Shown here in pieces: positions 3,398 to 31,181 of a DNA stretch of 64,000 nucleotides (position 1 is the first letter of the stretch; every line of letters starts with the position of its first letter). The position numbers and the translations under genes were made by a program. Source of the stretch: Microbacterium sp. Root180 (lineage in GTDB: Bacteria; Actinomycetota; Actinomycetes; Actinomycetales; Microbacteriaceae); assembly GCF_001428485.1 (NCBI RefSeq), contig NZ_LMHS01000003.1, positions 992,922-1,056,921 on the forward strand, written 5' to 3'. The notes under the pieces are model-generated. The model was not told the DNA's origin. It made no database searches and worked only from the letters and a program-made list of their open reading frames with translations.

Positions 3398-3416
3398 TCT
3401 GACCGGCCGGGCCCCG

Positions 3417-4802: not shown

Positions 4803-4912
4803 GGTGGCTCCAATGGTCGGGAGAGGGGAAGTGCGAAGTCGCTGCACCGCAGAGCGCGGCATCGTCGATTCTAGTCGCCCGACCCGCCTGGCTTCGCGGC
4901 CCTCGAACCCGC

Positions 4913-6244
4913 TCAGACCGGTCGCAGCGCGTCGGGGCCGACCTCGGCGATCGACGTGTGCCCCGACAGCCCCAGGGTGATGTCGAGCTCGGCGAGCACG
5001 TTGCGCACGACCTCGCGCACGCCCTCCTCGCCCGCGATGCCGAGCCCGTACGCGTACGGCCGGCCGAGCGCGACGATCGTCGCACCGAGGGCGAGGGCGA
5101 TGAAGGCATCCGATCCCTGCCGCACGCCCGAGTCGAAGACCACGGGCACGCGTCCGCCGACGCGCTCCACGACCCCGGGCAGGGCGTCGAGGGTCGGCAC
5201 GGACTGGTCGATCTGGCGGCCGCCGTGATTGGACACCCACACCCCGTCGACCCCCTCATCGAGCGCACGCGCCGCGTCGTCGGGGTGCACGATGCCCTTG
5301 AGCAGGATCGGCAGGCTCGTCCACTCCCGCGCCTTCGCGAGGTCGTCCCACGTGAGGGCCGGCGTCGAGAACACGTCGAGGAACGTCTCCACCGCCGCGC
5401 GCGGCAGGGGCGAGCGCAGGTTCTCGCGCAGGCCCCCGCCGGTGAGCGCGGCGCCCTTGCGTGCGATCTTCACTCCCGCCGCCACGGTCTTCGGGGTGAT
5501 CCGCACCGCGGGCGCCGGCGGGACCGCGGCATCCGGACCCTTCCTCACACGCTCGCGCACGAGCTGCTGGAACACCGGATCGCTCGAGTACTGCGCGATC
5601 CCCATGCCGCGCGTGAACGGCAGATAGGCGAGGTCGAGATCGCGGGTCCGCCACCCGAGCAGGTGCGTGTCGAGCGTCACGACGACGGCTTCGCAGCCGG
5701 ATGCCTCGGCACGCCGCAGCAGCGAGGCGTTGAGCTCGTCGTCGGCGGACCAGTAGAGCTGGAACAGCCGGGAGCCGCCGGGAGCGGCATCCGCCACCTC
5801 CTCCATGGGGAAGGAGGCCTGGTTGGACAGTGTGTACGGCACGCCGAGGGATGCCGCGGCCCGCGCGACCGCCAGGTCGGCCTCGTCGTGGGCCATCTCC
5901 ATCACGCCGAGCGGGGCGAGGAGCAGCGGGGTGGGGCGTCGACGGCCGAGGAACTCCACCGAGAGGTCGCGCGCGGACACGTCGCGGAGCGGTCTCGGCC
6001 ACACCTGCCACCGCTCGAACGCGGTCGTGTTGGCGCGCATCGTGCGCTCGGCCCCGGCGCCGCCGGCGATGTAGGCGAACGCCTCGGCGCTCAGCGCCTT
6101 GCGCGCGGCACGCTCGAGCTCAGCCTGATCGACCGGCACCCGCGGGCGCGTGCCGCTGATGCCGGCGCGGTAGATCTCCGACTGGGTGCGGCGGGAGATG
6201 CCGCGTGCGGCGGCGGGATCGTGGGGTCGGGCGCTGCTGACCAT
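4913..6244 (-). CDS. Alpha-hydroxy-acid oxidising flavoprotein (lactate 2-monooxygenase-like)
   Basis: 443 residues. FMN-dependent TIM-barrel features are present: the LLAPLG strand, the substrate/FMN lysine in [12 protein letters not shown], the catalytic histidine in SNHGGRQID (His-Gly-Gly-Arg) and the phosphate site [20 protein letters not shown]. The [16 protein letters not shown] region and length fit lactate 2-monooxygenase or long-chain hydroxy-acid oxidases better than LldD. It would oxidise L-lactate or a related 2-hydroxy acid. It is far from the fucose cluster, but that pathway ends in lactate, so a metabolic link is possible. A TAGGGT box six bases before the ATG suggests a leaderless transcript. 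Confidence 0.82.
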
Positions 6245-6250
6245 GCCCCC

Positions 6251-6256
6251 ACCCTA
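6251..6256 (-). promoter_or_regulatory. Leaderless -10 box for the hydroxy-acid oxidase
   Basis: Reverse strand TAGGGT, then six bases (GGGGGC), then ATG at 6244. The spacing puts the likely transcription start at the initiation codon. Confidence 0.6.
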
Positions 6257-6286
6257 GGCGGGGGCATGGCCGCAGCCAGGGTCGGA

Positions 6287-6445
6287 TCAGGTCTGGCGGC
6301 GGATGAAGCGCATGAGCCACGCGATCACGGCGATGATGATGATCACGAGGCCGATCCACAGCAGGAACTTCGCGGCCTCGATGAAGACTCCGAGGAGCAG
6401 CAGCACGACGCCGACGATGAGAAGAATGACTGCGAGAGAGGTCAT
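6287..6445 (-). CDS. Small two-helix membrane protein
   Basis: 52 residues starting MTSLAVILLIVGVVLLLLG, with two hydrophobic segments (about 3-20 and 26-42) and a basic tail (MRFIRRQT). A GGGAG ribosome site sits just before the ATG. Comparable tiny proteins are common in Microbacteriaceae and remain uncharacterised. An in-frame ATG at 6499 would add 18 residues without a good ribosome site and is less likely. Confidence 0.6.
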   Translation of the reverse strand: MTSLAVILLIVGVVLLLLGVFIEAAKFLLWIGLVIIIIAVIAWLMRFIRRQT

Positions 6446-6520
6446 GCTCCCACTCTGGCGAGGACCAGGCTCGCGCTGCAGGGTCTTGACAAGCGGCATC
6501 CGCTCGCGCTCGCACTCGGC

Positions 6521-7420
6521 CTAGGAGCCGAACCCGCACCAGTTCGCGACCCACGTGAGGATCTCCCCCCGCATGTCCTCCGAGGCGGCGAGCTCGATCT
6601 CTCCGGGCTCGCCGTCGATCTCCACCTCGACGTCGAAGATCGTGCCGCGCTTGTCCTCCTGCACCGCGTGGGGGTCGCACCGCAGCGGCATGATGGGCAA
6701 GGCGATCTCGGTCATCCCGGCGTCGCCCTCGCGGACGGCATAGCCGATGGGGTACGTCTCAACGGTGGCGTCGGCGACTTCGCCGAACGTCAGCAGATTG
6801 GTCGTCTGGATGCCGGTGATCGTCACCGCTCCCCGGCCAGTGGGGGCAACGCTCATCGTGAGCGTCGCGGGCTCCCCCGGCGGAGAGGGGTCGAAGCCAC
6901 CGAACGACACGTGCGCGGAGTCCGCGACCTCTGCCGCCCGGCAGTCGCGTTGGTGGAGCGGCCCGACCACGTCGAGCGGGTCCCGGAGCGGCCCCTCAAC
7001 GATCGATGCCTCCGGTCGCACGGCGCGCTCGGGCAGATCGAGTTCGAGCTGCACCGTCATCTGGCCATCCGCGGTGTCGCACTGCATGGGCGGGAGCTGG
7101 ATGCGGATGTCGACCGTTCCACCGGGGGCGATGGTCGACGACCGGCCCGCGGTCGGCCGCGTCGCGACGTCGGCGAAGCGCGGGTCGGTCACCGTGACGT
7201 CGCCGATCTCGATCGTCTCGTCGGTGTCGTTGTGCACCTGCACCTGCGCCTGCCGGGCGGCGACATCGGAGCGCAGCTGCACGAACTCGACCGATACACC
7301 GTCGGGCAGCGGTGGCGGAGCGACATCTCCGGGAGGCGCGCAGGCCGTGAGGCCGGTCCCGACTGCGCAGACAGCGAGCAGCGCCCACGCGCCACGACGC
7401 CGTGCCCGCGCGCCCGTCAC
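6521..7420 (-). CDS. Putative lipoprotein, unknown function
   Basis: 299 residues. A basic N-terminus, a hydrophobic segment and a lipobox (LTAC, Cys about residue 27) indicate export and lipid anchoring, followed by a Pro-rich linker. The mature part looks like two beta-rich modules ('VQVHNDTDETIEIGDVTVTDPRF' and 'VTITGIQTTNLLTFGEV') resembling immunoglobulin-like bacterial envelope domains, with several cysteines (MQCDT, RDCR, LRCDP, NWCGF) that could pair outside the cell. The GTG start overlaps the stop of the OSBS-type gene by four bases (GTGA), so the pair is translationally coupled. Confidence 0.7.
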   Translation of the reverse strand: MTGARARRRGAWALLAVCAVGTGLTACAPPGDVAPPPLPDGVSVEFVQLRSDVAARQAQVQVHNDTDETIEIGDVTVTDPRFADVATRPTAGRSSTIAPGGTVDIRIQLPPMQCDTADGQMTVQLELDLPERAVRPEASIVEGPLRDPLDVVGPLHQRDCRAAEVADSAHVSFGGFDPSPPGEPATLTMSVAPTGRGAVTITGIQTTNLLTFGEVADATVETYPIGYAVREGDAGMTEIALPIMPLRCDPHAVQEDKRGTIFDVEVEIDGEPGEIELAASEDMRGEILTWVANWCGFGS

Positions 7421-8550
7421 CGCGTGAGCGTCTCTCGCACCACGGTGAAGTCCTCAAGCGCGACCGGATCGATCTCGATCCCCAGTCCGTGCCCGGTCGG
7501 CACGCGCACGTGACCGTCTTCGAGCACGGCGGGCTCGGTGACGATGTCGCGCGTGTAGAACCGGCTCGATGCCGACACGTCGCCCGGCAGGGTGAAGCCG
7601 GGGAGCGCTGCGAGGGCGGCATTGGCGGCACGGCCGATCCCCGTCTCGAGCATGCCTCCGCACCACACCGGGATCGCGGCATCCCGGCACAGGTCATGGA
7701 TCGCGACCGCCTCCAGATAGCCGCCCACCCGCCCCGCCTTGATGTTGATGACGGATGCCGCACCCAGCGCCAGCGCGTCGGCGGCCGCCTTGGCCGACAC
7801 GATCGACTCGTCGAGGCACACCGGCGTGCGAAGGCGCCGGGCGAGGGTCGCATGGTCGACGAGGTCGTCCTCCTGCAGCGGCTGCTCGATGAGGAGCAGG
7901 TCGAAGCGATCGAGTTCGGCGAGCGTGTCGACGTCGGCGAGCGTGTAGGCCGAGTTGGCGTCCACCTGCAGCGTGATGGCGCCGAACGCGTCGCGCACGG
8001 CGGCGGTGTCGGCGATGTCGCGGCCCGGCTTGATCTTGATCTTGATGCGCGCGTACCCCTCGTCGAGGTAGCCGCCGACCGCGTCGACGAGGGCCGCCGG
8101 ATCGCGTTGGATTCCGACGGAGACCCCGCTCGGCACGCGGTCGCGTACCGCACCGAAGTACTCCCCCAGCGCGCGGCCCTCGCTGCGCAGCGCCGCGTCG
8201 AGCACGGCGAGCTCGAGGCCGGCCTTCACCATGCGGTGGCCGACGAACGGCGCCAGCACGGACGCGACCTCTTCGGGTGCGAGCCGGCCGCGGTCCAGCA
8301 GCGCCGGGGCGAGCCAGCGCAGCGCGACATCCCACGCGCTCTGCGTGTACTCGCTCGAGTACAGCGGCGCCGCCATGGTCACGATCTCGCCCCAGCCGTC
8401 GCCGTCCGAGGTCAGGGCGCGCACGACGATCACCTCGCGCACCGTCTCGGTGCCGAACGACGTGGTGAACGGGGCGACCAGCGGAAGGTGCAGCACCCTC
8501 AGCTCGAAGCCCTCGAGGGCGACGGATGCCGCGGCGGAGGCGATGGGCAT
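7417..8550 (-). CDS. menC: o-Succinylbenzoate synthase / N-acylamino-acid racemase (enolase superfamily)
   Basis: 377 residues with the full type-2 OSBS/NAAAR signature: LPLVAPFTTSFG at the N-terminus, the acid/base lysine motif KIKIKPG, the metal ligands DANSAY, LIEQPL and DES, the second lysine in NIKAGRVGG and the specificity loop WCGGMLETGIGRAANAALAALPGF. Members make o-succinylbenzoate for menaquinone or racemise N-acyl amino acids, and many do both. No other men gene is adjacent, so the physiological role is open; NAAAR activity is a real alternative. TACGCT lies six bases before the ATG (leaderless type). Confidence 0.82.
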   Translation of the reverse strand: MPIASAAASVALEGFELRVLHLPLVAPFTTSFGTETVREVIVVRALTSDGDGWGEIVTMAAPLYSSEYTQSAWDVALRWLAPALLDRGRLAPEEVASVLAPFVGHRMVKAGLELAVLDAALRSEGRALGEYFGAVRDRVPSGVSVGIQRDPAALVDAVGGYLDEGYARIKIKIKPGRDIADTAAVRDAFGAITLQVDANSAYTLADVDTLAELDRFDLLLIEQPLQEDDLVDHATLARRLRTPVCLDESIVSAKAAADALALGAASVINIKAGRVGGYLEAVAIHDLCRDAAIPVWCGGMLETGIGRAANAALAALPGFTLPGDVSASSRFYTRDIVTEPAVLEDGHVRVPTGHGLGIEIDPVALEDFTVVRETLTR

Positions 8551-15090: not shown

Positions 15091-15177
15091 TGACGCGACG
15101 GCGGCACATCGTCGCGAGGTACATCGATGATGCGGGTGCGACAGCGGGCTCGCCGCCCGACAAGGCAGAATCGACGC

Positions 15178-16056
15178 ATGGCCGCTACCCCGCACCTCCC
15201 CGCCGACCACGCCTGCCTGATCGTCCACGGCAGCGACCGGCCAGGGATCGTGGCGGCGGTCTCGGCGCTGATCACGCGCAACAACGGAAACATCGTCGCG
15301 TTCGACCAGTACTCCGACGACCCGATCGGCGGGGCGTATTTCCAGCGCGTGGTCTTCCACTGCGCCGACCTGTCCGCGGCACTCCCCGGCATCGAGGCCG
15401 ACCTCGCCCGCACGCTGGGCGACGGGTTCGATCTGCAGTGGTCGATCACCGACCAGTCCATCCCGAAGCGGATGGCGATCCTCGCGTCGAAGCAGGACCA
15501 CTGCCTGCTCGACCTGCTGTGGCGCCACCGCCGCGGCGACCTGCCGGTCACGATCCCGATGGTGATCTCGAACCACACCACGGCGGCGGAGGACGTGCGC
15601 TCGTTCGGCGTCCCGTTCTTCCATGTGCCGTCGGTCGCGGGGCCCGACAAGTCCGCCTCCGAGGCGGAGATCGTGAAGCTCCTGGCCGGCAACGTCGACT
15701 TCATCGTGCTCGCCCGCTACATGCAGATCCTCTCTGCGAGCTTCCTCGAGCAGGTGGGCGTGCCGGTCATCAACATCCACCACTCATTCCTGCCCGCCTT
15801 CATCGGCGCCGAGCCGTACAAGAAGGCGAAGGAGCGCGGCGTCAAGCTCATCGGCGCGACCTCGCACTACGTCACGGACGACCTCGACGAGGGGCCGATC
15901 ATCGAGCAGGACACCGTGCGCGTCACCCACGGCGACAGCGTCGAGGAGCTCGTCCGCCGCGGCTCGGATGTCGAGCGCCAGGTCCTCTCCCGTGCGGTGC
16001 TGTGGCATGCGCAGGACCGTGTCATCCGCCACGGCAACCACACGATCGTCTTTTAG
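15178..16056 (+). CDS. purU: Formyltetrahydrofolate deformylase
   Basis: 292 residues. An N-terminal ACT domain (residues about 10-90; CLIVHGSDRPGIVAAVSALI) precedes the formyltransferase-fold domain with MVISNH, the VLARYMQILS strand, the catalytic INIHHSFLPAFIGAEPYKKA (Asn-His) and GATSHYVTDDLDEGPIIEQD, diagnostic of PurU. It hydrolyses 10-formyl-THF to formate and THF, balancing one-carbon pools. CAGAAT six bases before the ATG may be a leaderless -10. It is an island of ordinary composition among small orphan genes. Confidence 0.94.
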   Translation: MAATPHLPADHACLIVHGSDRPGIVAAVSALITRNNGNIVAFDQYSDDPIGGAYFQRVVFHCADLSAALPGIEADLARTLGDGFDLQWSITDQSIPKRMAILASKQDHCLLDLLWRHRRGDLPVTIPMVISNHTTAAEDVRSFGVPFFHVPSVAGPDKSASEAEIVKLLAGNVDFIVLARYMQILSASFLEQVGVPVINIHHSFLPAFIGAEPYKKAKERGVKLIGATSHYVTDDLDEGPIIEQDTVRVTHGDSVEELVRRGSDVERQVLSRAVLWHAQDRVIRHGNHTIVF

Positions 16057-16790: not shown

Positions 16791-18431
16791 TCACTCGCTG
16801 AAGGCGTCGACGAAGCGGTCGCGGAAGGCGTCCATGCGCCAGACCGGCGCGGCGGGCGAGGGGTGCACGCCCTTCTCCCATCCCCACGACGCGATCGCGT
16901 CGAAGACCGCCGGGTCCTGCGCGATGATCGTGATCGGCACGTCATGATCGGCTTCCTCCCCGCTGACGATCTGCCACGGCTGGTGATCGCCGACGAGCAC
17001 GAGCACCAGGTCGGGCTGATCGAACGTCTCGAGGTACGAGAACGTCGCGCCGAGCGTGTAGGCCACGGACTCGCCATACAGCTCCCGCACCCGCTCCCGG
17101 TCGCCCCAGACCTCGGAGGCGGACTCCCCGGATGCCGCCTGCCGCGCGAACACCCGGCCGTCGCCGAGCTGCGACCACGGCACGAGCTGCGGTAGCGGCG
17201 TCCAGGGCGTGTGGGAGGACACCAGGTCGAGCTCCGCCATCACCGGGCCGTCGATGTCGGCGCGCCGGGAGTGGAACACGCTCCACGTGTACTGGTCGGG
17301 CATGTGCGCGTAGCCGAAGTGCGGGCCGCGGTACGCCATGTTCCGCTCGTCGAGCATGGTGTCGAATCCGTAGAAGTCCTTGCCGGCCTCCCATGCGCGC
17401 TCGTTCGACGGCACGACCGACATCGTGTGCCAGCCCGCAGAGCCGAACAGCTCGCTGAGGCTGCGCCGGTCGCTGTCGAGCAAGCGCGTGTACTTCAGGG
17501 GCGAGTCGGCCCACGCCCCGGTCTGCAGCGTCGAGTGCGCGAGCCAGCTGACCCCGCCGAACGTCGGCGAGGTGAGGAACGCACTTCGGGCGGAGAACCC
17601 GGCGCCGGCAAGGGCCTCGCCACCGTTCGAGAGCGCGCGTTCGACCGGGGCCGTGAACGGCGCCGGTTCGAGAGCGACGCGCCCGTAGGCCTCGACGAAC
17701 ACGATCATGACGTCCTTGCCGCGCAGAGCCGTGAACAGCTCGTCGCCGGGCATCGCGTCGAGCGGATCGACGCGGATCGCCCGGTCGAACGCCTGCAGCT
17801 CCTGCACGCTCGCGACGGCCCGCTCGGTCGTCGTGACGAGCTCGTCCGCGGAACGGGATGCCGCCACCGGCACGTCGGGGGTGAGTCGGGCTCCGGCGAG
17901 CGCGAGCACGATCCACCCCGCCGCGATGCCGGCGACCAGCATCCGTCCGTGTGGTCCGTCCGCCACCGCGCCGCTGACCCGCATCGCCGCCAGCGAGATG
18001 CCGGCGACGCTCGCCGCGGCGACGACGGCGACGGCGACGAGCGCGGAGGCCGCGCCGACCTGCCCCATCGCGTCGGCGACGACGCCGTACCCGTCGGCGA
18101 TCGCCTTGCCGCCGTCGACCGGGTTGAAGGCCCGGTCGATCGTCAGCCGGAACGCGAGGTCGAGCGCCGAGATCAGGATCGCGAGGACCACCACCACGCC
18201 GAATCCGATCCCCACTCCGATCCGCAGCGGTCGCCGCACGGCGATGAGGAGCACGAGCACGACGGCGATCGACTCCCCCGGGATCCCCGCGAGCGCCACG
18301 GCCCCGTCGCCGCCGAGCACGCCTGGCACGAGCGGAACCAGCACCAGCGTCCCGGCCGCGACCGCGGTGAGCGCGGCGGCGCGGCGCGAGGCGCTCGCGC
18401 CGTCGAGCCCGGGCTCAGACCGGCCGCTCAC
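16791..18431 (-). CDS. Membrane sulfatase / LTA-synthase-like protein
   Basis: 546 residues. The N-terminal third has about five transmembrane helices ending near residue 195; the rest is an extracellular alkaline-phosphatase-fold domain (PF00884). Visible motifs are VMIVFVEAYGRVALE (first metal strand), TSPTFGGVSWLAHSTLQTG (nucleophile region), YGFDTMLDERNM and VLVLVGDHQPWQ (Asp-His metal pair). This architecture matches polyglycerolphosphate synthases and phosphoglycerol or phosphoethanolamine transferases. The GTG start overlaps the upstream reductase gene by 17 bases, making it the last gene of the pterin/glycosyl operon. Confidence 0.75.
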   Translation of the reverse strand: MSGRSEPGLDGASASRRAAALTAVAAGTLVLVPLVPGVLGGDGAVALAGIPGESIAVVLVLLIAVRRPLRIGVGIGFGVVVVLAILISALDLAFRLTIDRAFNPVDGGKAIADGYGVVADAMGQVGAASALVAVAVVAAASVAGISLAAMRVSGAVADGPHGRMLVAGIAAGWIVLALAGARLTPDVPVAASRSADELVTTTERAVASVQELQAFDRAIRVDPLDAMPGDELFTALRGKDVMIVFVEAYGRVALEPAPFTAPVERALSNGGEALAGAGFSARSAFLTSPTFGGVSWLAHSTLQTGAWADSPLKYTRLLDSDRRSLSELFGSAGWHTMSVVPSNERAWEAGKDFYGFDTMLDERNMAYRGPHFGYAHMPDQYTWSVFHSRRADIDGPVMAELDLVSSHTPWTPLPQLVPWSQLGDGRVFARQAASGESASEVWGDRERVRELYGESVAYTLGATFSYLETFDQPDLVLVLVGDHQPWQIVSGEEADHDVPITIIAQDPAVFDAIASWGWEKGVHPSPAAPVWRMDAFRDRFVDAFSE

Positions 18432-19155
18432 CGTCGGGAGGTCCCTGCGGCGCCCGCACGGCATCGGGGTCCGCGTCGAAGCGGTGCGACAGCGCGTACC
18501 GCAGCAGCACCACGTCGGCGATGGGCCGCGTCTCGGTCAGTCGCGCGCGCCGCGACGCGTTCCACGGGAATCGCCCCTCGCCGACGAAACGGGGCGCCTG
18601 CGACTCGCCCACGAAGAACGGGGCGATGACCAGCTGCAGCTCGTCGGCGACATCCTCCACGAGGAACTGCGTGTGCATGCGGCCGCCTCCTTCGACCATA
18701 AGGCGCCGGATCCCCTGCTCCGCGAGGTCATCCGCGACGGCGGCCATCGTCACCTCGTCTCCCAGGGCGACGACGGTGGCGACCGACGAGAGAGTCCGTG
18801 CGATCCTCGCCGACTCGCCACGCGGGCAGTAGACGATCTTCTCGACGTCGCCGGCCGTGAAGAACGCCGACGCGGGCGACACGTCTCCGCTCGCCGTCAC
18901 CGTGACCTTGACGGGGGTCTCCTCGCGGCCCGCGCCGCGGCGCAGCATCCGTCGCCGCTCGCTGCGCACGAGCAGACGCGGGTTGTCGCGCCGCACGGTC
19001 GAGGCGCCCACCATGATCGCGTCGCTGTCGGCGCGCAGCTGATCGACGCGGTCGAAGTCCTCGGCGTTCGACATCGCCAGCCGCCGGGGCGTCTCGCTGT
19101 CGAGGTACCCGTCGAGCGACATCGCGCAGCTCAGCGTGACGTACGGCCGGTTCAT
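18415..19155 (-). CDS. RibD C-terminal / dihydrofolate-reductase-fold reductase
   Basis: 246 residues. RibD_C (PF01872) features are clear: SCAMSLDGYLDSETPRRLAMSN, the NADPH-site DAIMVGASTVRRDNPRLLVR, and RRLMVEGGGRMHTQFLVE. There is no N-terminal deaminase, so this is the reductase half only, the type that reduces ribosyl-aminopyrimidines or related pterin-like rings with NADPH. No riboflavin genes are nearby; it sits inside an operon with a PTPS homologue, suggesting a dedicated pteridine-type substrate (inference). It starts in an ATGA overlap with the flippase-like gene. Confidence 0.8.
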   Translation of the reverse strand: MNRPYVTLSCAMSLDGYLDSETPRRLAMSNAEDFDRVDQLRADSDAIMVGASTVRRDNPRLLVRSERRRMLRRGAGREETPVKVTVTASGDVSPASAFFTAGDVEKIVYCPRGESARIARTLSSVATVVALGDEVTMAAVADDLAEQGIRRLMVEGGGRMHTQFLVEDVADELQLVIAPFFVGESQAPRFVGEGRFPWNASRRARLTETRPIADVVLLRYALSHRFDADPDAVRAPQGPPDGERPV

Positions 19156-20144
19156 GCGCCCCTCTCCCTGCGTCGGCGGAGCGCGGATGCCGCGAGCACG
19201 ACCGCGCCCGGCGCGACGGCGATCATCGCGAGCACGCCGTACGCGGTCGCCGCCGCGAGCCCGGCCGCCGCGCCGAGACCCGCGACGCCGAACGCCCACG
19301 CCGCCGCCCCTTCGCGAGGACCCCATCCGCCCAAGCTGAACGGGATCGACGAGGCCAGCACGGCCACGAGGGCCGCCGCCGTCACGCGGTCGGGCGAGGC
19401 CTCCACCCCGACCGCGACGCACGCGACGAGGAACGTCGCGACGTGCGCGCCGAGGACGACGACGGATGCCGCCACCACCCGCAGCACCGTCCCGACCGAC
19501 GAGAATGCCGACCGGAGCACGGCGAGTTCGCGCGTGACGGCGGTCCGTGCGCGGCGGCTCGCTGCGGCGACGATCGCGAGCACGGCGATGATCGCGACCA
19601 CAACGCCGAGCACGGCGAAGGCCGAGGCGGCCGCCGTCGATCCGGCGATCACGAGCACGGCGAGGGCGAGGGCGAGCTGCACCGCCTGCCCTGCCGCGCG
19701 CTCCGCCGCGACCGCGCGCGAGGCCTGCGCGACCTGGTCGACACTGCGGCCGTGCGACACGGCACGGTGCACATCGCCGACGACACCGCCCGGCAGCACC
19801 GTGTTGAGGAACTGGGACCGGTAGTAGGCGGCCACCGACTCGCCCCACGCCAGGCGCAACCCCATCCGCGTCGCGAGGGTGCGCCATCGCCAGGCGGCGG
19901 CGCAGGTCGCCGCGGCGGCGAGCACCACGGCCGCGGCGATCGCGATCGGCGAGACCGCTGCGAGTCCGCGGAGGAACGGCTCGGCACCCGCGACCGCCAC
20001 AATGCCCACGAGGATCGCCGCCCCGGCCGCCGCGCGCAGCCATGGTCGCCACCGCGGCGGTTCCGGCGGGGGAACGGGAGCGACCGCGAGCGGGGCCGGG
20101 AGCCGGTCGGGTGCGCGCTCCCGGGGAGCGGAGAGATCGGTCAT
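19152..20144 (-). CDS. Flippase-like / LPG-synthase transmembrane domain protein
   Basis: 330 residues from ATG 20144, coupled to the methyltransferase by ATGA; an ATG three codons upstream is possible. After a Pro-rich cytoplasmic N-terminus come about eight hydrophobic helices with the PF03706 hallmarks NTVLPGGVVGDVHRAV and SIPFSLGGWGPREGAAAWAF. Family members (AglD/MprF-TM type) are linked to lipid flipping or lipid-linked sugar steps. In this operon it is a natural candidate to move a lipid-linked glycosylated intermediate across the membrane (inference). Confidence 0.75.
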   Translation of the reverse strand: MTDLSAPRERAPDRLPAPLAVAPVPPPEPPRWRPWLRAAAGAAILVGIVAVAGAEPFLRGLAAVSPIAIAAAVVLAAAATCAAAWRWRTLATRMGLRLAWGESVAAYYRSQFLNTVLPGGVVGDVHRAVSHGRSVDQVAQASRAVAAERAAGQAVQLALALAVLVIAGSTAAASAFAVLGVVVAIIAVLAIVAAASRRARTAVTRELAVLRSAFSSVGTVLRVVAASVVVLGAHVATFLVACVAVGVEASPDRVTAAALVAVLASSIPFSLGGWGPREGAAAWAFGVAGLGAAAGLAAATAYGVLAMIAVAPGAVVLAASALRRRRERGA

Positions 20145-20941
20145 GACGGCCACGCGAGGAGATCCCGATGGTGGACGACGACGCGGAGCCTGCCGGTGAG
20201 TACCTGCGCGCGCCGCGTGCGCAGGTACTCACCCGCCCACTCGGTGAGCGCCGGGCGCTCCTCCACGGCGGCGGACACCCACCCCTCCAGCCACTCGGCG
20301 ACGAGCGCGGGCTCGCGATCGCCCAGGCGCCAGGGCGAGGAATCCGTCCGCACCGACCAGCCGGCCGCCCGGAACAGCCCCGCGGCGACGGCGACCGCGT
20401 CGGGTCCGAGCAGGCGTCGGTCCTCGGCGCTGCGGCGCTGGTGGTCGTTGAACGCCGCCGCGAACACGCGGTCGCCGGGGTCGACGGGATCGAGCGCGAC
20501 GTCCCCATCGACGGTGAGCGCGAACAGCGCCGGGGCGCCGACGCCGACGCAGGCAGCGACGATCGCCTCCACCTCCTCCGCCGACAGCACGTCGAGGAGG
20601 GCCGACGTCACGACCAGCGATGCGCCGGCGAGGTCCTCGGCCCGCAGCGTCTCCAGGTGTCCCACCCGCGTCAGCACCGCGGCGACGGATCCCGGAGGCG
20701 CGGCGGCGGCGTGCGCGAGGAGCGCGGCGTTCCAGTCGTGCAGCACCCACGTCTGAGGAGAGGGCAGGCGGGGCGCGAGCCAGCGCATCATCGCGCCGGT
20801 CCCGCTGCCGAGGTCGTGCACGGTGACCGGCGCGTGCACCAGGTGCGACGCCCGGCGCGCCAGCGAGCGCGAGCGGGACGCGGCATCGGCCTCCTCGCGC
20901 AGCGTGAGCCAATCGGCCGACACCGGGATGACGACGCTCAC
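20141..20941 (-). CDS. SAM-dependent methyltransferase (class I)
   Basis: 266 residues from a GTG at 20941 in a GTGA overlap with the glycosyltransferase stop. Motif I is VTVHDLGSGTGAMMRWLAPRL (about residues 38-58), with an acidic strand-2 residue in WVLHDWNAAL and a LVVTSALLDVL strand-4 region. The target is unknown. 'ALFALTVDGDVALDP' and 'FNDHQRR' resemble the class II/trans-aconitate-like methyltransferase group. Its position between a glycosyltransferase and a flippase suggests it modifies the same intermediate. Confidence 0.75.
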   Translation of the reverse strand: MSVVIPVSADWLTLREEADAASRSRSLARRASHLVHAPVTVHDLGSGTGAMMRWLAPRLPSPQTWVLHDWNAALLAHAAAAPPGSVAAVLTRVGHLETLRAEDLAGASLVVTSALLDVLSAEEVEAIVAACVGVGAPALFALTVDGDVALDPVDPGDRVFAAAFNDHQRRSAEDRRLLGPDAVAVAAGLFRAAGWSVRTDSSPWRLGDREPALVAEWLEGWVSAAVEERPALTEWAGEYLRTRRAQVLTGRLRVVVHHRDLLAWPS

Positions 20942-21960
20942 GGCAGGCTCCGCAGCGCGCGGTCGACGGTGCGCGCCGTCTCGGTCCAGTCGCGGCGGCT
21001 CGGACCCTCCTGCCGGGCCTCGGCCGTCAGCGCGGCGCGCAGCGACGCATCCGTCATCCACTGCCGCAGCGCATCGCGCAGGGCGGCGGGCCGATTCGGC
21101 GATACGAGGATCGCGGCCCGGCTCGGCCCGATCGCCTCCGGGATCCCCCCGACGCGGGTGGCGACGACGGGGATGCCGCGGCGCAGCGCATCGCCGACCA
21201 CGATGCCGTAGCTCTCGGTGCGCGATGGGGCGACGAGCAGATCGGCCCGCGCGTACAGGGCGTCCAGGGCGCGTCCGTGGACGACCCCGGCCCACGTGAT
21301 GCGCTCGGCCACTCCGGCGTCCGCGGCGCGCGCCGCGATCCGCCGCACGAACGCGGGGTCGGCGGCGACCGACCCGGCGATCGTGCACGTCCATCCGGGT
21401 CCGAGGGCGGTGAGGGCGTCGACGAGCAGATCCTGCCCCTTGTGCGGGGCCACGACGCCCACGCACAGGAGCGACCCGCCCGTCGTCGTTCCCCCCGAGA
21501 GCGGCGCGTCATCGGATCCCGGCGTCGCGACCACGACCCGGTCGGGGGCGACGAGGCCGCGGGCCACCAGCTCGTCCCGCGTCCAGACGCTCGTGGCGAC
21601 GACCAGGGCGGCGCTCGCCAGCACCCGTCGCTCGTGCTCGATCGCCGCGGGGTCGGCCTCGTCGAACGCCGCGGTCACCATGTGCACCAGCACCGCCAGG
21701 CGCAGCCGGGCCGCCGCTGCCACGACGGCGTCGGGGGCACCGCGCGCGACGAGCCCGTCCACGAGCACCAGACCGCCCGACGGCAGGCCGTCGAGCGCGG
21801 CACGGGAGGCGGCATCCGCTCGCGCCTCCACCCGCCGCACGTCCCAGCCGAGTCGTCGCAGTCCCTCGGCCACCCGGGCGTCGAAGACGTTGCCGCCGCT
21901 CACGCGCGCCGGATCGTCGACCCCCTCGGGGACGACGAACCACACCACGCGTGCGCTCAC
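20938..21960 (-). CDS. Glycosyltransferase family 4
   Basis: 340 residues from GTG 21960, overlapping the PTPS-like stop as GTGA. GT-B/GT4 features: acceptor-side [20 protein letters not shown], the C-domain entry [48 protein letters not shown] and the donor motif [30 protein letters not shown], where the second acidic residue of EX7E is Asp. It would transfer a nucleotide-sugar residue to a small or lipid-linked acceptor at the cytoplasmic face. Translational coupling to a PTPS homologue is the striking point. Confidence 0.85.
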
Positions 21961-22352
21961 AGCTCCACCTCGTACGAGGCCCACGCGACGTGGGACTCGC
22001 GCAGCGTGACCCCGATGCCGGTGAGGCGCGCCGCGCCGAGGGAGCCCTCCCGCGCCGCGAGGACGAGCTTCTCGGCGATGACGCCGCACAGCCGCTCGGT
22101 GGTCGTGTTCACCCCCGCGAACTCCGGCTCCTCATCGAGGTTCCGGTACGAGAGGAGCGACAGGATGCCGCGCAGCACCTCGCTCGCCCGCCCGATGTCG
22201 ACCACCACGCCGTCGTCGTCGAGCGCCGCGGCCCGGAACGTCGCGTCCACGACGTACGTGGCTCCGTGCAGCCGCTGGGCCGGGCCGAACGCCTCGCCGG
22301 TGAGGCTGTGGGCGATCATGATGTGGTCGCGCACCGTCAGGGAGTAGGTCAT
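21957..22352 (-). CDS. 6-pyruvoyl-tetrahydropterin synthase / QueD-like protein, catalytically diverged
   Basis: 131 residues. T-fold features: the first zinc His (MIAHSL, His15), the [12 protein letters not shown] strand, an acidic [12 protein letters not shown] helix, [26 protein letters not shown] and the C-terminal [14 protein letters not shown]. Compared with E. coli QueD, the HGH zinc pair is HGA (His29, Ala31), the catalytic Cys loop has no Cys, and the LDH motif is replaced by LSYRNLDE. It is therefore unlikely to do standard QueD or PTPS chemistry. It overlaps both neighbours (ATGA and GTGA). Confidence 0.78.
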
Positions 22353-23323
22353 GCGTCGCTCCAGTCGATCGTGTGACACAGGCCAGGGGCCGAGCCGTCG
22401 GCGATCGCGGCCATCACCGCGGGCAGGTCCCGCCACGACGACTCGCCCGTGAGCAGCTGATCGAAGGCGGGGTCGCGCAGCAGATCGAGCGCGAGAGCCA
22501 GGCGATCGTGCGTCGAGCGACTGCCCCGCCGCCGCGGCGCCACCATCCCGACCTGGCTCGAGCGCACCGTGAGGCGCCGGGAGTGGAACGCGCCGCCGAG
22601 GTGCACGCTCACCGGGCGATCCCCGAACCAGCTCGCCTCGATCACCTCGCCCTCGGTCGTCGCGAGGTCGAGCGCGAGCTGCAGGCCGTCGCCGGATGCG
22701 CTCGTGTGGATCACGAGATCGCGATCGCGCGCTGCCGTATCCGGTGCGGCGAACGCGACCCCGAGGCCCTCGGCCACCGCCGCCTTCGAGGGATCGATGT
22801 CGACGAGCTCGACGTCCGCGCCCGGGATGCCGGCGGCGAGGCGCGCGACCGCGCAGCCGATCATCCCCGCACCGACGACGCTGACGCGGTCGCCGACGAG
22901 GGGCGCGGCATCCCACAGGATGTTCACCGCCGTCTCGACCGCCCCCGCCAGCACCGCGCGGCGGGTCGGCACGCCGTCGGGCACGACCGACACGGCCGAG
23001 CCCGGCACGACGAACACCGACTGGTGCGGGAAGAGGGTGAACACCGTGCGGCCCGCGAGCTCCGCCGGTCCGCTCTCCACGACCCCGACGTTGAGGTAGC
23101 CGTAGGCGACGGGGCCCGGAAGCTCACCGTCCTGGAACGGCGCGCGCATGCGGTCGCGCTCCCCCGCCGGGACCTCGCCCCGGAACACGATCGATTCGGT
23201 CCCCCGGCTGATCCCCGTCACGAGCGTGCGTACCACGGCGTCGCCGGGTGCGGGGTCGCTCAGCGCAACCTCGCGCAGCGACCCCTGCGAGGGGCCGTCC
23301 ACCCAGAACGCGGTGGCGTGCAT
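22349..23323 (-). CDS. Zinc-binding-type (MDR) alcohol dehydrogenase homologue
   Basis: 324 residues starting [19 protein letters not shown] architecture: a GroES-like N-domain ([23 protein letters not shown]) and a Rossmann domain with [19 protein letters not shown] (about residues 148-166) and an acidic [18 protein letters not shown] end, which suggests NAD(H). The catalytic Cys and structural-zinc Cys cluster are not visible, so it may be zinc-independent. First gene of a seven-gene overlapping operon. It could reduce or oxidise the side chain made by the PTPS-like partner (inference). Confidence 0.75.
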
Positions 23324-23371
23324 CAGAAGAGCGGCCCTCCCGATTGAACCGAACCCCACCCCTGATCCGTG

Positions 23372-23381
23372 TCACCGGTGA
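23372..23381. promoter_or_regulatory. Palindrome in the divergent promoter region
   Basis: TCACCGGTGA is a perfect 10-base palindrome between the divergent MDR and CDP-alcohol genes, a candidate operator coordinating both operons. I see no convincing -35/-10 pair around it. Confidence 0.35.
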
Positions 23382-23400
23382 TATCCATGACGGAGAAACG

Positions 23401-24153
23401 GTGCTCCCCATGCAGAAGGTTCATCTCGCTCCGCTCGCGTCGGTCGGCGCGGGGCTCGTCGGTCTGATCGTGGTCGCGCTCGTCGCCCCGCTGTCGGCGG
23501 CCGGATGGGCAACCGGACTCGCCTACCTTCTCGCCTCGAACGCCCTCCTCGCCAGGGGGTTGCATCGCCGGGCGATGTCGTCGTTCGGTCCGGCCAACGC
23601 GGCGACGGCGATCCGATCGACGCTCGTGGCGCTCATCGCGGCGCTCGTCGCCACCTCGTTCACCGCTCCCGTCCCGGTGCCGCTGCTCATCGTGCTGGCG
23701 AGCATCGCTCTCGCGCTGGACGCCGTCGACGGATGGCTCGCCCGCCGCACCCACTCCGAGAGCGAGCTGGGCGCGCGCTTCGACATGGAGGTCGATGCGT
23801 TCCTGCTGCTCGTGCTGAGCGCCTACGTCGCGGAGAGCCTCGGCGGGTGGGTGCTCACGATCGGCCTCCTGCGCTACGCGTTCGTCGCGGCCGGTTGGGT
23901 GCTCCCCTGGATGCGGGCGACGCTGCCACCGAGGTACTGGCGCAAGGTCGTGACCGCGGTGTCGGGCATCGCTCTCATCGCCGCGGCATCCGGTCTGCTC
24001 CCCCCGGTCGCGAATCTGGCCGTGACCCTCGTCTCCCTCGCCCTGCTGCTCGAGTCGTTCGGCCGCGACGTCCTCTGGCTCGCGGCTCACCGGCGCACCC
24101 CGACCATCCCCGCACACGCGGACCACCCAAGGAATGTGAGGTCGACGACATGA
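23401..24153 (+). CDS. CDP-alcohol phosphatidyltransferase family protein
   Basis: 250 residues from a GTG at 23401 with GGAG five bases before it; an ATG at 23410 is possible. The complete active-site signature D-x2-DG-x2-AR-x8-G-x3-D-x3-D is visible from LDAVDGWLARR to GARFDMEVD. About six hydrophobic helices surround it. These enzymes move a phosphatidyl or related phosphoalcohol group from a CDP-linked donor to an alcohol acceptor. It is divergent from the pterin/glycosyl operon across a 77-base gap, so it may supply the lipid anchor (inference). Confidence 0.85.
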   Translation: MLPMQKVHLAPLASVGAGLVGLIVVALVAPLSAAGWATGLAYLLASNALLARGLHRRAMSSFGPANAATAIRSTLVALIAALVATSFTAPVPVPLLIVLASIALALDAVDGWLARRTHSESELGARFDMEVDAFLLLVLSAYVAESLGGWVLTIGLLRYAFVAAGWVLPWMRATLPPRYWRKVVTAVSGIALIAAASGLLPPVANLAVTLVSLALLLESFGRDVLWLAAHRRTPTIPAHADHPRNVRSTT

Positions 24154-24566
24154 ACGACGGCAACCAGAGGGTCCTGTGGGCCCTGCGCATCCTCAGCGCA
24201 CTCTTCCTGCTCGCCGCGGGCGGCATCCACCTGTATCTCGTCTTCAACGGCGTCGGCGGCATCCTGGGCGTCATGTTCGTGCTGAACGCCGTCGCAGGGC
24301 TCGTGCTGGCGATCGCGATGGTCGTACTGCGCGGACGGATGCTGCGCCTGGCCACCGTGCTCAGCCTGCTGTTCCTCATCGCGACGCTGCTCGCCCTCGT
24401 GCTGGCCCTGACGGTCGGCCTGTTCGGCATCCACGAGACGTGGGACTTCATGCTCGTCCCCGAGACCGTGATCGTCGAGTCGATCGGCATCGTCGTGCTG
24501 GCGATCACCACCTACGCGGTGTTCCGGATGCCGCTCGCGGACGGGGCCGGGCGGCAGGGGGCGTAG
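24150..24566 (+). CDS. Small four-helix membrane protein
   Basis: 138 residues; the ATG overlaps the preceding stop as ATGA. Four hydrophobic helices (LWALRILSALFLLAAGGIHL; GVMFVLNAVAGLVLAIAMVV; LATVLSLLFLIATLLALVLA; VESIGIVVLAITTYAVF) occupy nearly all of it, with a conserved-looking GIHETWDF loop. No enzymatic motif. It is translationally coupled to the CDP-alcohol phosphatidyltransferase and converges with the beta-lactamase-like gene. Confidence 0.7.
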   Translation: MNDGNQRVLWALRILSALFLLAAGGIHLYLVFNGVGGILGVMFVLNAVAGLVLAIAMVVLRGRMLRLATVLSLLFLIATLLALVLALTVGLFGIHETWDFMLVPETVIVESIGIVVLAITTYAVFRMPLADGAGRQGA

Positions 24567-25560: not shown

Positions 25561-27525
25561 TCACCAGATGGTGACGCGCTGCTCCTTGTCGAGCCACAGC
25601 GCGTCGGAGGGCGACACGTCGAACGCGTCGTAGAACGCGTCGATGTTGCGGACGATCTGGTTGCAGCGGAACTCGTTCGGCGAGTGCGGGTCGATCGTCA
25701 GCAGACGGATGGTCTCGGCATCCCGCCCCTTCTGCTGCCAGATCTGACCCCAGCTCAGCAGCAGCCGCTGCACGCCGGTGAAGCCGTCGATGACGGGCGC
25801 CTCGGCCCCGCCGAGGGAGAGCTCGTACGCCTTCAGGGCGATGCCGAGGCCGCCGAGGTCGCCGATGTTCTCGCCGATCGTGAGCGAGCCGTTCACCTTG
25901 TAGTCCTCGCCGAGACCCTCGGGCGTGAGGGCGTCGTACTGGGCGATGAGGTTCTTCGTGCGCTCCTCGAACGCGGCGCGGTCGCCGTCGGTCCACCAGT
26001 CTCGCAGCGAGCCGTCGCCGTCGAAGCGGCTGCCCTGGTCGTCGAACCCGTGGCCGATCTCGTGCCCGATGACCGCGCCGATCCCGCCGTAGTTGGCGGC
26101 CGCGTCGCGGTCGGCTTCGAAGAACGGATGCTGCAGGATCGCCGCGGGGAACACGATCTCGTTCATGAGCGGGTTGTAGTACGCGTTGACGGTCTGCGGC
26201 GTCATGTACCACTCGTCGCGGTCGATCGGCTGACCGACCTTCGCGAGCTGGCGGTCGTGCTCCCACACGTGCGCGCGGTGGACGTTGCCGACCAGATCGG
26301 CGGCGTCGACCTCGAGCGTGGCGTAGTCCTTCCAGGCCACGGGGTAGCCGATCTTCGGCGTGAAGGCGTCGAGCTTGGCGAGCGCACGCGCGCGCGTCTC
26401 GGGGCTCATCCACTCCAGGTCGGTGATGGACTGCCGGTAGGCCTCGATGAGGTTCGCGACGAGCTCGTCCATCGCCTCCTTCGCCGCCGGCGGGAAGTGG
26501 CGCTCGACGTAGACGCGCCCGATCGCCTCGCCCATCGCGGCCTCGGCGAGACCGACGCCCCGCTTCCACCGCTCGCGGTTGACCGGCACGCCGGTGAGCT
26601 GGGTGCCGTAGAACGCGAAGTTCTCGTCGACGAAGTCGTCCGACAGGAACGCCGCGGCGCTGTGCACGATCGACCAGCGCAGCCAGGCCTTCCAGTCCTC
26701 GAGGCGCTCCTCGGTAAGCAGCGACCCGAGACCCTCGACGAAGCTCGGCTGGTAGACGTTGACCTCGGCGAACGCGTCGGGGTGCCCGGGCGCAACGCCG
26801 GCGACCCACGGGTCGAGGTCGACGCCCGCGAGCTCGCGCACCTCGCTCCACGGCTTCAGGTTGTACGTGGCGACCGCGTCGCGGCTCTTCACGTTGTCCC
26901 AGTGATGGGTGGCGAGCTCGGTCTCGATCGCGAAGATGCGATCAGCGGATGCCGCGGCCTCGGCCACGCCTGCCAGCTCCAGCATCTTCTGCACGTGCGC
27001 GCGGTACGCGGTGCGGGTGGCCTCGAAGTTGTCGAGACGGTAGTAGCTCTCGTCGGGGAGCGACAGCCCGCCCTGGATGAAGAAGGGCACGTAGCGCTGC
27101 GGGTTGCCCGGGTCGGGCTCGATGTAGAGGTGCACCAGGCCCGCGATGCCGTCCCGCTCGAACTCGCCGACGGTGCGCAGGAACGTCGGGATGTCGCTGA
27201 CCGCGTCGACGCGGGCGAGCTGCTCGGCCAGGGGTGCGGCGCCCAGGTCGGCGATGCGCGCGGTGTCCATGAAGCTCGTGTAGAGGTCGCCGATCTTGCG
27301 CGTCTCGGTGCCCGGCGCGGCGGCCTGCGACTCCTCGACGATCGCGTGGACGTCCTTCTCGGCCTGTTCGGCGATGAGGTGGAACGACCCCCACCGCGCC
27401 TTGTCGTCGGGGATGTCGGTGCGGTCCAGCCACGCGCCGTTGACGTGACGGAACAGGTCGTCCTGCGGGCGGATCTCGTCGCTGAGCTCGTCGAGCGCGA
27501 GACCGGTACGGGGGGCGTCGGTCAT
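25561..27525 (-). CDS. pepO: M13-family zinc metalloendopeptidase (PepO-like)
   Basis: 654 residues without signal peptide. M13/neprilysin signatures: NAYYNPLMNEIVFPAAIL (substrate-binding NAYY), the zinc site GHEIGHGFDDQG (HExxH) with the third ligand in GENIGDLGGL, and a C-terminal DPHSPNEFRCNQIVRNIDAFYDAF block; the terminal CxxW of eukaryotic members is replaced by TIW. It cleaves peptides in the cytoplasm or after non-classical release. TATCCT six bases before the ATG marks a leaderless start. The beta-lactamase-fold gene follows 64 bases downstream. Confidence 0.92.
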   Translation of the reverse strand: MTDAPRTGLALDELSDEIRPQDDLFRHVNGAWLDRTDIPDDKARWGSFHLIAEQAEKDVHAIVEESQAAAPGTETRKIGDLYTSFMDTARIADLGAAPLAEQLARVDAVSDIPTFLRTVGEFERDGIAGLVHLYIEPDPGNPQRYVPFFIQGGLSLPDESYYRLDNFEATRTAYRAHVQKMLELAGVAEAAASADRIFAIETELATHHWDNVKSRDAVATYNLKPWSEVRELAGVDLDPWVAGVAPGHPDAFAEVNVYQPSFVEGLGSLLTEERLEDWKAWLRWSIVHSAAAFLSDDFVDENFAFYGTQLTGVPVNRERWKRGVGLAEAAMGEAIGRVYVERHFPPAAKEAMDELVANLIEAYRQSITDLEWMSPETRARALAKLDAFTPKIGYPVAWKDYATLEVDAADLVGNVHRAHVWEHDRQLAKVGQPIDRDEWYMTPQTVNAYYNPLMNEIVFPAAILQHPFFEADRDAAANYGGIGAVIGHEIGHGFDDQGSRFDGDGSLRDWWTDGDRAAFEERTKNLIAQYDALTPEGLGEDYKVNGSLTIGENIGDLGGLGIALKAYELSLGGAEAPVIDGFTGVQRLLLSWGQIWQQKGRDAETIRLLTIDPHSPNEFRCNQIVRNIDAFYDAFDVSPSDALWLDKEQRVTIW

Positions 27526-29788: not shown

Positions 29789-29831
29789 TTTCGGTGGACC
29801 GAAATATCGGTAGGGTTTCGGTGTGCCGAAA
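29789..29831 (+). promoter_or_regulatory. MntR operators and leaderless promoter of mntH
   Basis: Two DtxR/MntR-type palindromes are visible: TTTCGGTGGACCGAAA (29789-29804) and TTTCGGTGTGCCGAAA (29816-29831), with a TATCGGT half-site between. The -10 box TAGGGT is at 29811-29816, six bases before the GTG at 29823, so the second operator covers the transcription start and initiation codon. Binding by the mntR product encoded downstream would block both RNA polymerase and, if leaderless, ribosome entry. Confidence 0.72.
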
Positions 29832-31181
29832 AATCTCCCGGCTCCGTCGACGGCGACGGATGCCCCCCGCTCCATCTCCGTGCCGCGCGCCGCGTGGCTG
29901 ATCGGGCCCGCGCTCGTCGCCGGCGTGGCGTACCTCGACCCGGGCAACGTCGCCAGCAACATGACCGCCGGCGCGGTCTACGGCTACCTGCTCGTGTGGG
30001 TCGTCGTGCTCGGCAACGTCATGGCATGGCTGATCCAGTACCTCTCGGCCAAGCTCGGGATCGTCACGGGCCGCAGCCTGCCCGAGACCCTCGGCGCCCG
30101 CATCCGCAACCGCTGGGGCCGCCGCGCGTACTGGCTGCAGGCAGAGCTCGTCGCGATGGCGACCGACATCGCCGAGGTGATCGGCGGGGCGGTCGCGCTC
30201 AACCTGCTGTTCGGCGTGCCGCTGCTGTGGGGCGGGCTGATCACGGGCACCGTGTCGATCGTCCTCCTGCTCGTCCAGTCGCGGCGAGGGGCGAAGACGT
30301 TCGAGTTCGTCGTGATCGGACTGGTCGCCATCATCGCGATCGGCTTCACGTACGGCGTCTTCGTCGCGCCGCCCGATCCGGCCGGAGTCGTGGCCGGTCT
30401 CGTTCCGCGATTCGAGGACTCCGGGTCGGTGCTGCTCGCGGCATCCATCCTCGGTGCCACGATCATGCCGCACGCCATCTACGCCCACTCGGCCCTCGCG
30501 AGGGACCGCTTCGCGCCCTCGCCGGCGGCCACGGCCGGCAGCCACGCTCGCGCAATGGCGCCGGAGTTCGGCGACGAGGGCCCGGGCGCGCGGGTGCCCG
30601 TGCCGCTCGAGGAGCTGCGCGGCATCCCGACCTCGCGGCTGCTGCGGGCGACGAAGTGGGACGTGACGATCGCGATGCTCATCGCGGGCACGGTGAACCT
30701 CTGCATCCTGCTGCTCGCGGCGGCCAACCTCGCCGGCGTTCCCGGCACCGACACGCTGGAGGGCGCCTACGCGGCGCTGTACTCCGGCCTCGGACCCGTC
30801 GTCGCGACGCTCTTCGCCGTCGGACTGCTCGCGAGCGGCCTGGCCTCCACGTCGGTGGGCGCGTACGCGGGCGCCGAGATCATGCACGGCCTGCTGCACA
30901 TCCGCGTGCCCCTGATCGCCCGACGGCTGGTCACCCTGATCCCGGCGCTCGTGATCCTCGGCATCGGCGTCGACCCGACACTCGCCCTCGTCCTCAGCCA
31001 GGTGGTGCTGTCCTTCGGCATCCCGTTCGCACTCATCCCGCTCGTCGCATTGACCGCGAAGGCGGACGTGCTCGGCCGGTTCCGCAACCGCACGCTCACG
31101 ACGGTCGCCGGGATCGCGGCATCCGTGTTCCTCATCGCCCTGAACGCGATCCTGCTGTGGCTGGTGCTGACGGGCGCGTGA
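29823..31181 (+). CDS. mntH: Nramp-family Mn(II)/divalent metal importer
   Basis: 452 residues, eleven hydrophobic helices. The helix-1 metal motif DPGN is intact (AYLDPGNVASNM) and the helix-6 motif appears as GATIMPHAIYAHSAL (MPH). This proton-coupled importer brings manganese, and less well iron, into the cell. The GTG start lies inside an MntR-type palindrome, and mntR follows 24 bases downstream with its own -10, giving a complete autoregulated unit. Confidence 0.94.
   Translation: MPKNLPAPSTATDAPRSISVPRAAWLIGPALVAGVAYLDPGNVASNMTAGAVYGYLLVWVVVLGNVMAWLIQYLSAKLGIVTGRSLPETLGARIRNRWGRRAYWLQAELVAMATDIAEVIGGAVALNLLFGVPLLWGGLITGTVSIVLLLVQSRRGAKTFEFVVIGLVAIIAIGFTYGVFVAPPDPAGVVAGLVPRFEDSGSVLLAASILGATIMPHAIYAHSALARDRFAPSPAATAGSHARAMAPEFGDEGPGARVPVPLEELRGIPTSRLLRATKWDVTIAMLIAGTVNLCILLLAAANLAGVPGTDTLEGAYAALYSGLGPVVATLFAVGLLASGLASTSVGAYAGAEIMHGLLHIRVPLIARRLVTLIPALVILGIGVDPTLALVLSQVVLSFGIPFALIPLVALTAKADVLGRFRNRTLTTVAGIAASVFLIALNAILLWLVLTGA

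Follow-up and report, generated by a model that had tools for sequence, protein, structure and literature searches.

A conserved actinobacterial operon around a PTPS-IV protein that may branch off riboflavin biosynthesis

Introduction

What does a PTPS homologue make when it is encoded in one operon with a dehydrogenase, a glycosyltransferase and several membrane proteins? The question is raised by nine genes at positions 16791–24566 of a 64,000-nucleotide stretch of DNA from Microbacterium sp. Root180 (contig NZ_LMHS01000003.1, positions 992,922 to 1,056,921; G+C 70.6%), which we call the window. On balance, our comparison with related genomes favors the view that these genes serve a conserved pathway, a branch that leaves riboflavin biosynthesis at the diaminopyrimidine, with a product that we infer from the genes involved.

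The same set of genes, without a known product, occurs in more than 20 actinobacterial genera, including Streptomyces and Micromonospora, and in some Acidobacteria. For one of its proteins, SCO6650, a crystal structure has long been available. Our comparison turns this “PTPS of unknown function” into a series of candidate steps: cyclohydrolase II, deformylation, RibD_C, dehydrogenase, T-fold protein and glycosylation. It also points to a minimal set of four genes, which is amenable to expression and assay. Should the product prove to be a pterin glycoside exposed on the cell surface, it would represent a novel type of envelope molecule, one that is redox- or light-active.

Results

The locus

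A first-pass annotation of the window had described seven genes on the minus strand and two divergent genes on the plus strand. All nine were found at the places and on the strands it had given.

22349–23323, minus strand: MDR-superfamily dehydrogenase (MDR), first gene of the operon, core; closest curated model BchC, weak MDR match
21957–22352, minus strand: PTPS-IV, a SCO6650-type T-fold protein, core; PF01242 (E 1e-22), FGPAQ motif
20938–21960, minus strand: GT4 glycosyltransferase, core; PF00534 and PF13692
20141–20941, minus strand: class I S-adenosylmethionine (SAM) methyltransferase (MT), accessory; PF13649 just under the Pfam cut-off
19152–20144, minus strand: LPG_synthase_TM flippase-like membrane protein (LPG_TM), accessory; PF03706, 110 bits
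18415–19155, minus strand: RibD_C reductase, core; PF01872, 134 bits; closest curated model the archaeal diaminopyrimidine reductase
16791–18464, minus strand: membrane-anchored phospho-transferase resembling lipoteichoic acid (LTA) synthase, accessory; profile match to LTA primase 4uop
23410–24153, plus strand: CDP-alcohol phosphatidyltransferase, divergent gene; PF01066 (CDP-OH_P_transf)
24150–24566, plus strand: small membrane protein, second gene of the divergent pair; no Pfam or curated family match
23324–23409, no strand: putative shared divergent promoter region, the 86-base gap between both ATG starts

Pfam confirmed the RibD_C, LPG_synthase_TM, GT4, PTPS and CDP-OH_P_transf families. 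The overlapping junctions also hold up. Adjacent genes overlap by 4 bases (ATGA/GTGA) at the plus-strand junction and at every minus-strand junction but one, five out of six. The exception is the RibD_C/LTA-like pair, which overlaps by 50 bases, or by 17 with GTG 18431 as the start. The divergent gap had been given as 77 bases, which holds with GTG 23401 as the start of the CDP-alcohol gene; with the ATG at 23410 it measures 86. Several alignment columns in this gap are kept among 18 Microbacterium loci. The small membrane protein belongs almost only to Microbacterium clusters, with tblastn relatives in six Microbacterium loci and one weak match in another locus (L124).

Conservation of the cluster

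Do these genes belong together? A search of GTDB contig stretches with the PTPS protein yielded at least 471 relatives, of which the best 80 loci were kept for neighborhood comparison. Within these 80, the loci closest to the window are from Microbacterium, and the order dehydrogenase-PTPS-GT4 is kept in nearly all. The same neighbors in the same order are found in Microbacterium, Micromonospora, Actinoplanes, Amycolatopsis, Actinomadura, Streptomyces, Geodermatophilus and others, and the order recurs in two acidobacterial metagenome-assembled genomes.

Presence was counted in those 61 homologous loci whose flanks both extend 7 kb or more. MDR is present in all 61, GT4 in 60, LPG_TM and the CDP-alcohol gene in 59 each and MT in 57. 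Cyclohydrolase II follows with 52, a creatininase with 32, RibD_C with 30 and the LTA-like gene with 20. The first-pass annotation had suggested looking for co-occurrence of the PTPS-like, GT4 and PF03706 genes across Actinobacteria, and the counts for GT4 and LPG_TM bear its expectation out.

In an even draw of the class, PTPS-IV occurs in 47 of 346 genomes and 22 of 126 genera; hence its distribution is patchy, not universal. Within the genus, 27 of 149 genomes carry it and 122 do not. Synteny and all-or-none occurrence within the genus rule out a chance neighborhood.

Two side observations concern distribution. One genome (G025) has two PTPS-IV genes, on contigs C134 and C111. In another, without PTPS-IV (G408, locus L139, about 1600–7500, minus strand), relatives of the CDP-alcohol, LPG_TM and GT4 genes lie together (31–39% identity), perhaps a related envelope module standing alone.

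The PTPS-IV protein

By sequence, the PTPS-like protein is clearly the orthologue of SCO6650 and a member of the PTPS-IV subfamily. It scores 80.8 bits against PF01242 (cut-off 22.4), matches the SCO6650 structure (PDB 3d7j; phmmer E 8e-48) and carries FGPAQ at residues 23–27, near-invariant in 27 sequences. An excerpt of the AGeNNT paper gives FGPAQ as the signature used for PTPS-IV (PMC5445326). The window's genome has no other PTPS-family gene.

The first-pass annotation had treated this homologue as the source of a pterin-like or other small molecule, and this part of its proposal has to be given up. We read the active site from profile alignments to human PTPS (1b66) and P. horikoshii PH0634 (2dj6). 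Two of the zinc histidines are kept (H16 and H30) and the third is Ala32; the catalytic Cys aligns with Ala26, and the catalytic Asp-His with Ser/Asn-Tyr70. Because one zinc His, the catalytic Cys and the Asp-His are replaced, PTPS-IV is, judged by its residues, not a working PTPS. The QueD model reaches 41.7 bits, far below its cut-off of 89.25. Glu120 is invariant in the 27 sequences and would match the pterin-anchoring Glu of PTPS proteins. SCO6650 itself reportedly has no PTPS activity and could bind a pterin-like ligand. A pterin source would have to be sought in the cyclohydrolase-II diaminopyrimidine together with RibD_C.

RibD_C as a constant partner

The RibD_C protein scores best of all models against TIGR01508, at 138.1 bits and below the cut-off of 186.45. 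Its orthologue is present in 25 of the 27 congeneric genomes with PTPS-IV and in none of the 122 without (149 genomes; Fisher p ~2e-26, a value that ignores relatedness). The two exceptions (G439 and G493) have a non-orthologous RibD_C inside the PTPS cluster.

Across the class, with a threshold of 1e-40, the orthologue is found in 39 of 47 genomes with PTPS-IV versus 44 of 299 without. Six of the eight exceptions (G189, G198, G269, G326, G290 and G238) again have a RibD_C of the non-orthologous kind beside PTPS in the cluster; the remaining two (G018 and G298) have MDR-PTPS-GT4 only. In the Streptomyces family, every genome of this sample without the orthologue, four in all, has the non-orthologous kind in the cluster. 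The non-orthologous copies form one clade. At L117 (10820–12337, minus strand) such a copy is fused to cyclohydrolase II and adjoins the MDR-PTPS-GT4 cluster.

Where would the substrate come from?

The clusters of relatives carry a GTP cyclohydrolase II (PF00925), and many also a creatininase-family amidohydrolase (PF02633). At the residue aligned with Tyr105 of E. coli RibA, the cyclohydrolase has Tyr wherever it is paired with the orthologous RibD_C and no creatininase is present (25 clusters). Wherever an actinobacterial cluster has a creatininase (35 clusters), the residue is Met (28) or His (7). Outside both groups stand L024 (Tyr, weak RibD_C match) and two Acidobacteria (Tyr, weakly similar creatininase). 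The Tyr-type clusters carry the orthologous RibD_C themselves. Sixteen other genomes were tested, mostly of the creatininase type. In 15 of them the orthologue lies elsewhere in the genome (50–61% identity, versus about 30–36% for housekeeping copies); the remaining one (L076) carries a non-orthologous RibD_C within the cluster.

The Met-type cyclohydrolase of S. coelicolor is said to stop at the formamide intermediate, and if so an adjoining formamide hydrolase makes sense. We read the co-variation as pointing to the creatininase as a candidate deformylase. The relatives' creatininases score 34–38 bits against the ArfB model NF033501 (cut-off 180) and 130–136 bits against the MftE model (cut-off 172), which is closer and still below. 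In the cyclohydrolase II tree, the Met and His types form one clade beside RibBA-type sequences, which rules out 35 independent changes from Tyr.

In the window's genome the single cyclohydrolase II is RibBA of the rib operon. There is no PF00925 gene in the window's cluster, no dedicated cyclohydrolase II elsewhere in the genome and no creatininase in the genome. Hence, the window's pathway would draw on the riboflavin pathway.

Comparative genomics, rather than biochemistry, supports the view that the genes of the locus form one pathway, that RibD_C is a constant part of it and that its substrate originates from GTP cyclohydrolase II. The first-pass annotation had read one pathway from the coupled junctions; co-occurrence, gene order across families and the joint gain or loss of RibD_C and PTPS in the genus lead to the same view.

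The core and a putative envelope layer

In two Microbacterium clusters, L002 and L138 (G423), there is nothing beyond MDR-PTPS-GT4-RibD_C. Because they hold these four genes alone, we regard RibD_C-MDR-PTPS-IV-GT4 as the minimal unit. A formamidase beside the four-gene cluster at L002 was not found at L138 and was taken as a coincidence.

The MDR protein has Ser in place of the catalytic-zinc Cys of zinc MDRs, and this Ser40 is invariant among relatives. At the C-G-x-D position, where RspB has Cys-Gly-Ser-Asp, it reads Ser-Arg-Gly-Thr-Glu. BchC, its best curated model, is an alcohol dehydrogenase and shares this Ser-x-Gly-Thr-Glu motif.

The first-pass annotation had counted methylation, flipping and phospholipid chemistry as parts of the pathway. 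The genes are usually present; they are not essential to the core, as L002 and L138 lack them, the methyltransferase included. The MT, LPG_TM, CDP-alcohol and LTA-like genes thus look like a usual but optional layer. The CDP-alcohol enzyme has the complete motif D-x2-D-G-x2-A-R-x8-G-x3-D-x3-D, and D104, D107, G108, A111, R112, G121, D125 and D129 are invariant in 23 sequences.

The LTA-like protein, previously called a sulfatase, has no Pfam match, and its gene is in a minority of the loci. Its structural model places it in the LtaS/LtaP/GacH fold, as a phosphoglycerol/phosphoethanolamine-transferase-type protein. The Z scores are tied (21.8 for LtaS, 21.5 for LtaP and 20.8 for GacH; 260–270 residues, rmsd 3.3–3.6), and the EptA/MCR phosphoethanolamine transferases score about equally. 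Weak or missing fold matches were not counted as evidence, and the membrane part (residues 1–215) is poorly modeled. E258, T301, D493 and H494, invariant in 13 relatives, we take to be the LtaS metal and nucleophile residues. The N-terminal helices and the extracytoplasmic-type domain suggest that the protein acts outside the membrane.

Neighboring genes

The nearest well-identified gene beyond the 3' end of the operon encodes the formyltetrahydrofolate deformylase PurU (15127–16056, plus strand), which scores well above its cut-off and lies about 0.7 kb away. The divergent pair is followed immediately, on the other strand, by a Beta-lactamase2-family protein (PF13354; 24579–25496, minus strand). 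Further on lie a PepO-like endopeptidase (25561–27525, minus strand; 358 bits, below its equivalog cut-off) and the NRAMP-type manganese transporter MntH (29823–31181, plus strand).

Discussion

How could these genes work together? In the pathway that we favor, GTP cyclohydrolase II would first make 2,5-diamino-6-ribosylamino-4(3H)-pyrimidinone 5'-phosphate. In the window's genome only RibBA could supply this compound; in relatives a dedicated copy in the cluster would. In Met- and His-type relatives the reaction is expected to stop at the formamide, and the creatininase-family hydrolase would remove the formyl group. Second, RibD_C would reduce the ribosyl to the ribityl group. The 2-amino group is probably kept, because there is no deaminase in the cluster. 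The comparative evidence supports this entry from GTP through the diaminopyrimidine to the ribityl-diaminopyrimidine.

Third, MDR and PTPS-IV may convert the ribityl-diaminopyrimidine into a pterin-like ring. In the version that we prefer, MDR would oxidize the ribityl C2'-OH to the 1-deoxy-pentulosyl ketose of the GTP cyclohydrolase I Amadori rearrangement, and the T-fold protein PTPS-IV would close the ring to a dihydropterin. This chemistry is coherent but unproven. Fourth, GT4 would glycosylate the pterin-like product, if that is its acceptor. Fifth, in most species, MT may methylate the product, the CDP-alcohol enzyme and the flippase-like protein may link it to a phospholipid or move it across the membrane, and the LTA-synthase-fold enzyme could modify it on the outside.

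A pterin-like molecule that is reduced and glycosylated, as the first-pass annotation had suggested, is still the best guess for the product. Taken to its full extent, the proposal would amount to a second dihydropterin route without GTP cyclohydrolase I, with ring closure by a metal-poor T-fold protein, leading to a glycosylated pterin that in most species is phospholipid-linked and displayed at the surface, as an undescribed class of lipid. In this strong form we consider it unlikely.

Several observations weigh against the pathway as proposed. First, the zinc Cys that an alcohol dehydrogenase should have is missing from MDR. Second, the most reduced relatives (L115 and L116) have MDR-PTPS-GT4 only. 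Third, since the Met and His types form one clade, the switch to the creatininase reflects one or two evolutionary events. Fourth, where the genome is of the creatininase type, a cytidine-deaminase domain is fused to the RibD_C orthologue or lies next to it, which would fit a uracil-type product.

The fourth point leads to the first rival explanation. One could argue that the product is a deaminated ribityl-uracil derivative (flavin-, lumazine- or F420-like) and that PTPS-IV acts on that compound. A review gives a role of PTPS-IV in archaeal cofactor F420 as unpublished work (PMC5041015), and an FbiC-like frame lies about 6.7 kb before the window (G000:C3:983845-986244; 839 amino acids, two CofH-model matches, both below cut-off). 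However, none of the 80 PTPS-IV loci has a RibD_C-linked deaminase, not even those that carry RibD_C in the cluster. Moreover, 122 of the 149 congeners have no PTPS-IV, and hence it does not look like a general F420 gene. We think this explanation has a modest chance of being right.

Some further observations concern these deaminases. In Streptomyces, the RibD_C orthologue with its deaminase adjoins a Tyr-type cyclohydrolase II, whose frame overlaps a SpoIIE-phosphatase gene. At L103 (6420–7676, minus strand) and L106 (7867–9153, plus strand) the deaminase is C-terminal to RibD_C, the opposite of the usual RibD order. A deaminase match at L115 was rejected as a TadA-like protein adjoining unrelated genes.

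Alternatively, the operon could mainly serve an envelope glycolipid or teichoic-acid-type pathway, with RibD_C and PTPS-IV recruited to unrelated chemistry and GTP not the precursor. Together, GT4, the CDP-alcohol enzyme, LPG-TM and the LTA-synthase fold do resemble a glycolipid assembly line, and the canonical catalytic residues are lost in both PTPS-IV and MDR. Yet 52 of the 61 relatives carry a dedicated cyclohydrolase II, which at L117 is even fused to RibD_C, and L002 and L138 keep MDR-PTPS-GT4-RibD_C without envelope genes. We are rather doubtful of this alternative. Finally, an ordinary PTPS or QueD gene (for queuosine, folate or biopterin) beside unrelated genes would fit the Pfam family membership, but it is virtually ruled out by the lost catalytic residues, the low QueD score, the gene order kept across families and the all-or-none co-occurrence in the genus.

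Comparison with known systems

The favored pathway, with its branch from the diaminopyrimidine, can be set beside several known systems. One of the closest is the SCO6650/SCO6655 locus of S. coelicolor (PDB 3d7j; Spoonamore et al. 2006, as cited in PMC3509567), a system for which we know of no product. Streptomyces clusters contain the PTPS orthologue and share the MDR-PTPS-GT4-MT-LPG_TM core with the window. Unlike the window, they have a Met-type cyclohydrolase II in the cluster; the window has neither cyclohydrolase II nor creatininase there, and RibD_C and the LTA-like gene instead. The Streptomyces proteins were reportedly studied singly (a structure, and a cyclohydrolase that stops at the formamide).

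Archaeal riboflavin biosynthesis (ArfA/ArfB/ArfC) offers an analogy, with a formamide-stopping cyclohydrolase, a creatininase-family deformylase and reduction before deamination. It differs in that the matches to ArfB and to the archaeal reductase model all stay below cut-off, and the pathway here would go on to glycosylation and not to riboflavin. LTA synthase, LTA primase and GacH share the fold and the metal and nucleophile residues of the LTA-like protein. Identity to them is 11–17%, however, and the LTA-like gene is optional and part of a pterin-type operon.

That PTPS-IV, cyclohydrolase and RibD_C are neighbors had already been noted: the AGeNNT paper, in the excerpt cited above, names a PF00925 cyclohydrolase and RibD_C (PF01872) as PTPS-IV neighbors (PMC5445326). 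The window's protein has the FGPAQ signature. RibD_C is in its operon and a PF00925 gene is not, RibBA being the only one in the genome; most relatives do have PF00925 in the cluster. The excerpt labels PF00925 as GTP cyclohydrolase I/FolE2, and the Pfam definition is GTP cyclohydrolase II. It proposes no pathway, and it does not describe the GT4, MDR, MT, flippase-like, CDP-alcohol and creatininase partners. A literature search among open-licence papers found none describing this pathway or product. To our knowledge, four points are new: the putative switch to a deformylase, the exchange between RibD_C types, the core of four genes and the envelope layer.

A precedent for the GT4 step comes, by analogy, from cyanobacteria. 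Their pterin glycosides are made by pteridine glucosyltransferases, and cyanopterin carries a methylated sugar (PMC3546692). Cyanopterin and biopterin glucoside (PgtA/BGluT) resemble the proposed product in combining a T-fold pterin-family enzyme with sugar transfer and a pterin whose sugar is methylated. The cyanobacterial compounds start from GTP cyclohydrolase I (PMC3546692), whereas the pathway proposed here would use the type II enzyme with RibD_C and add a membrane and export layer.

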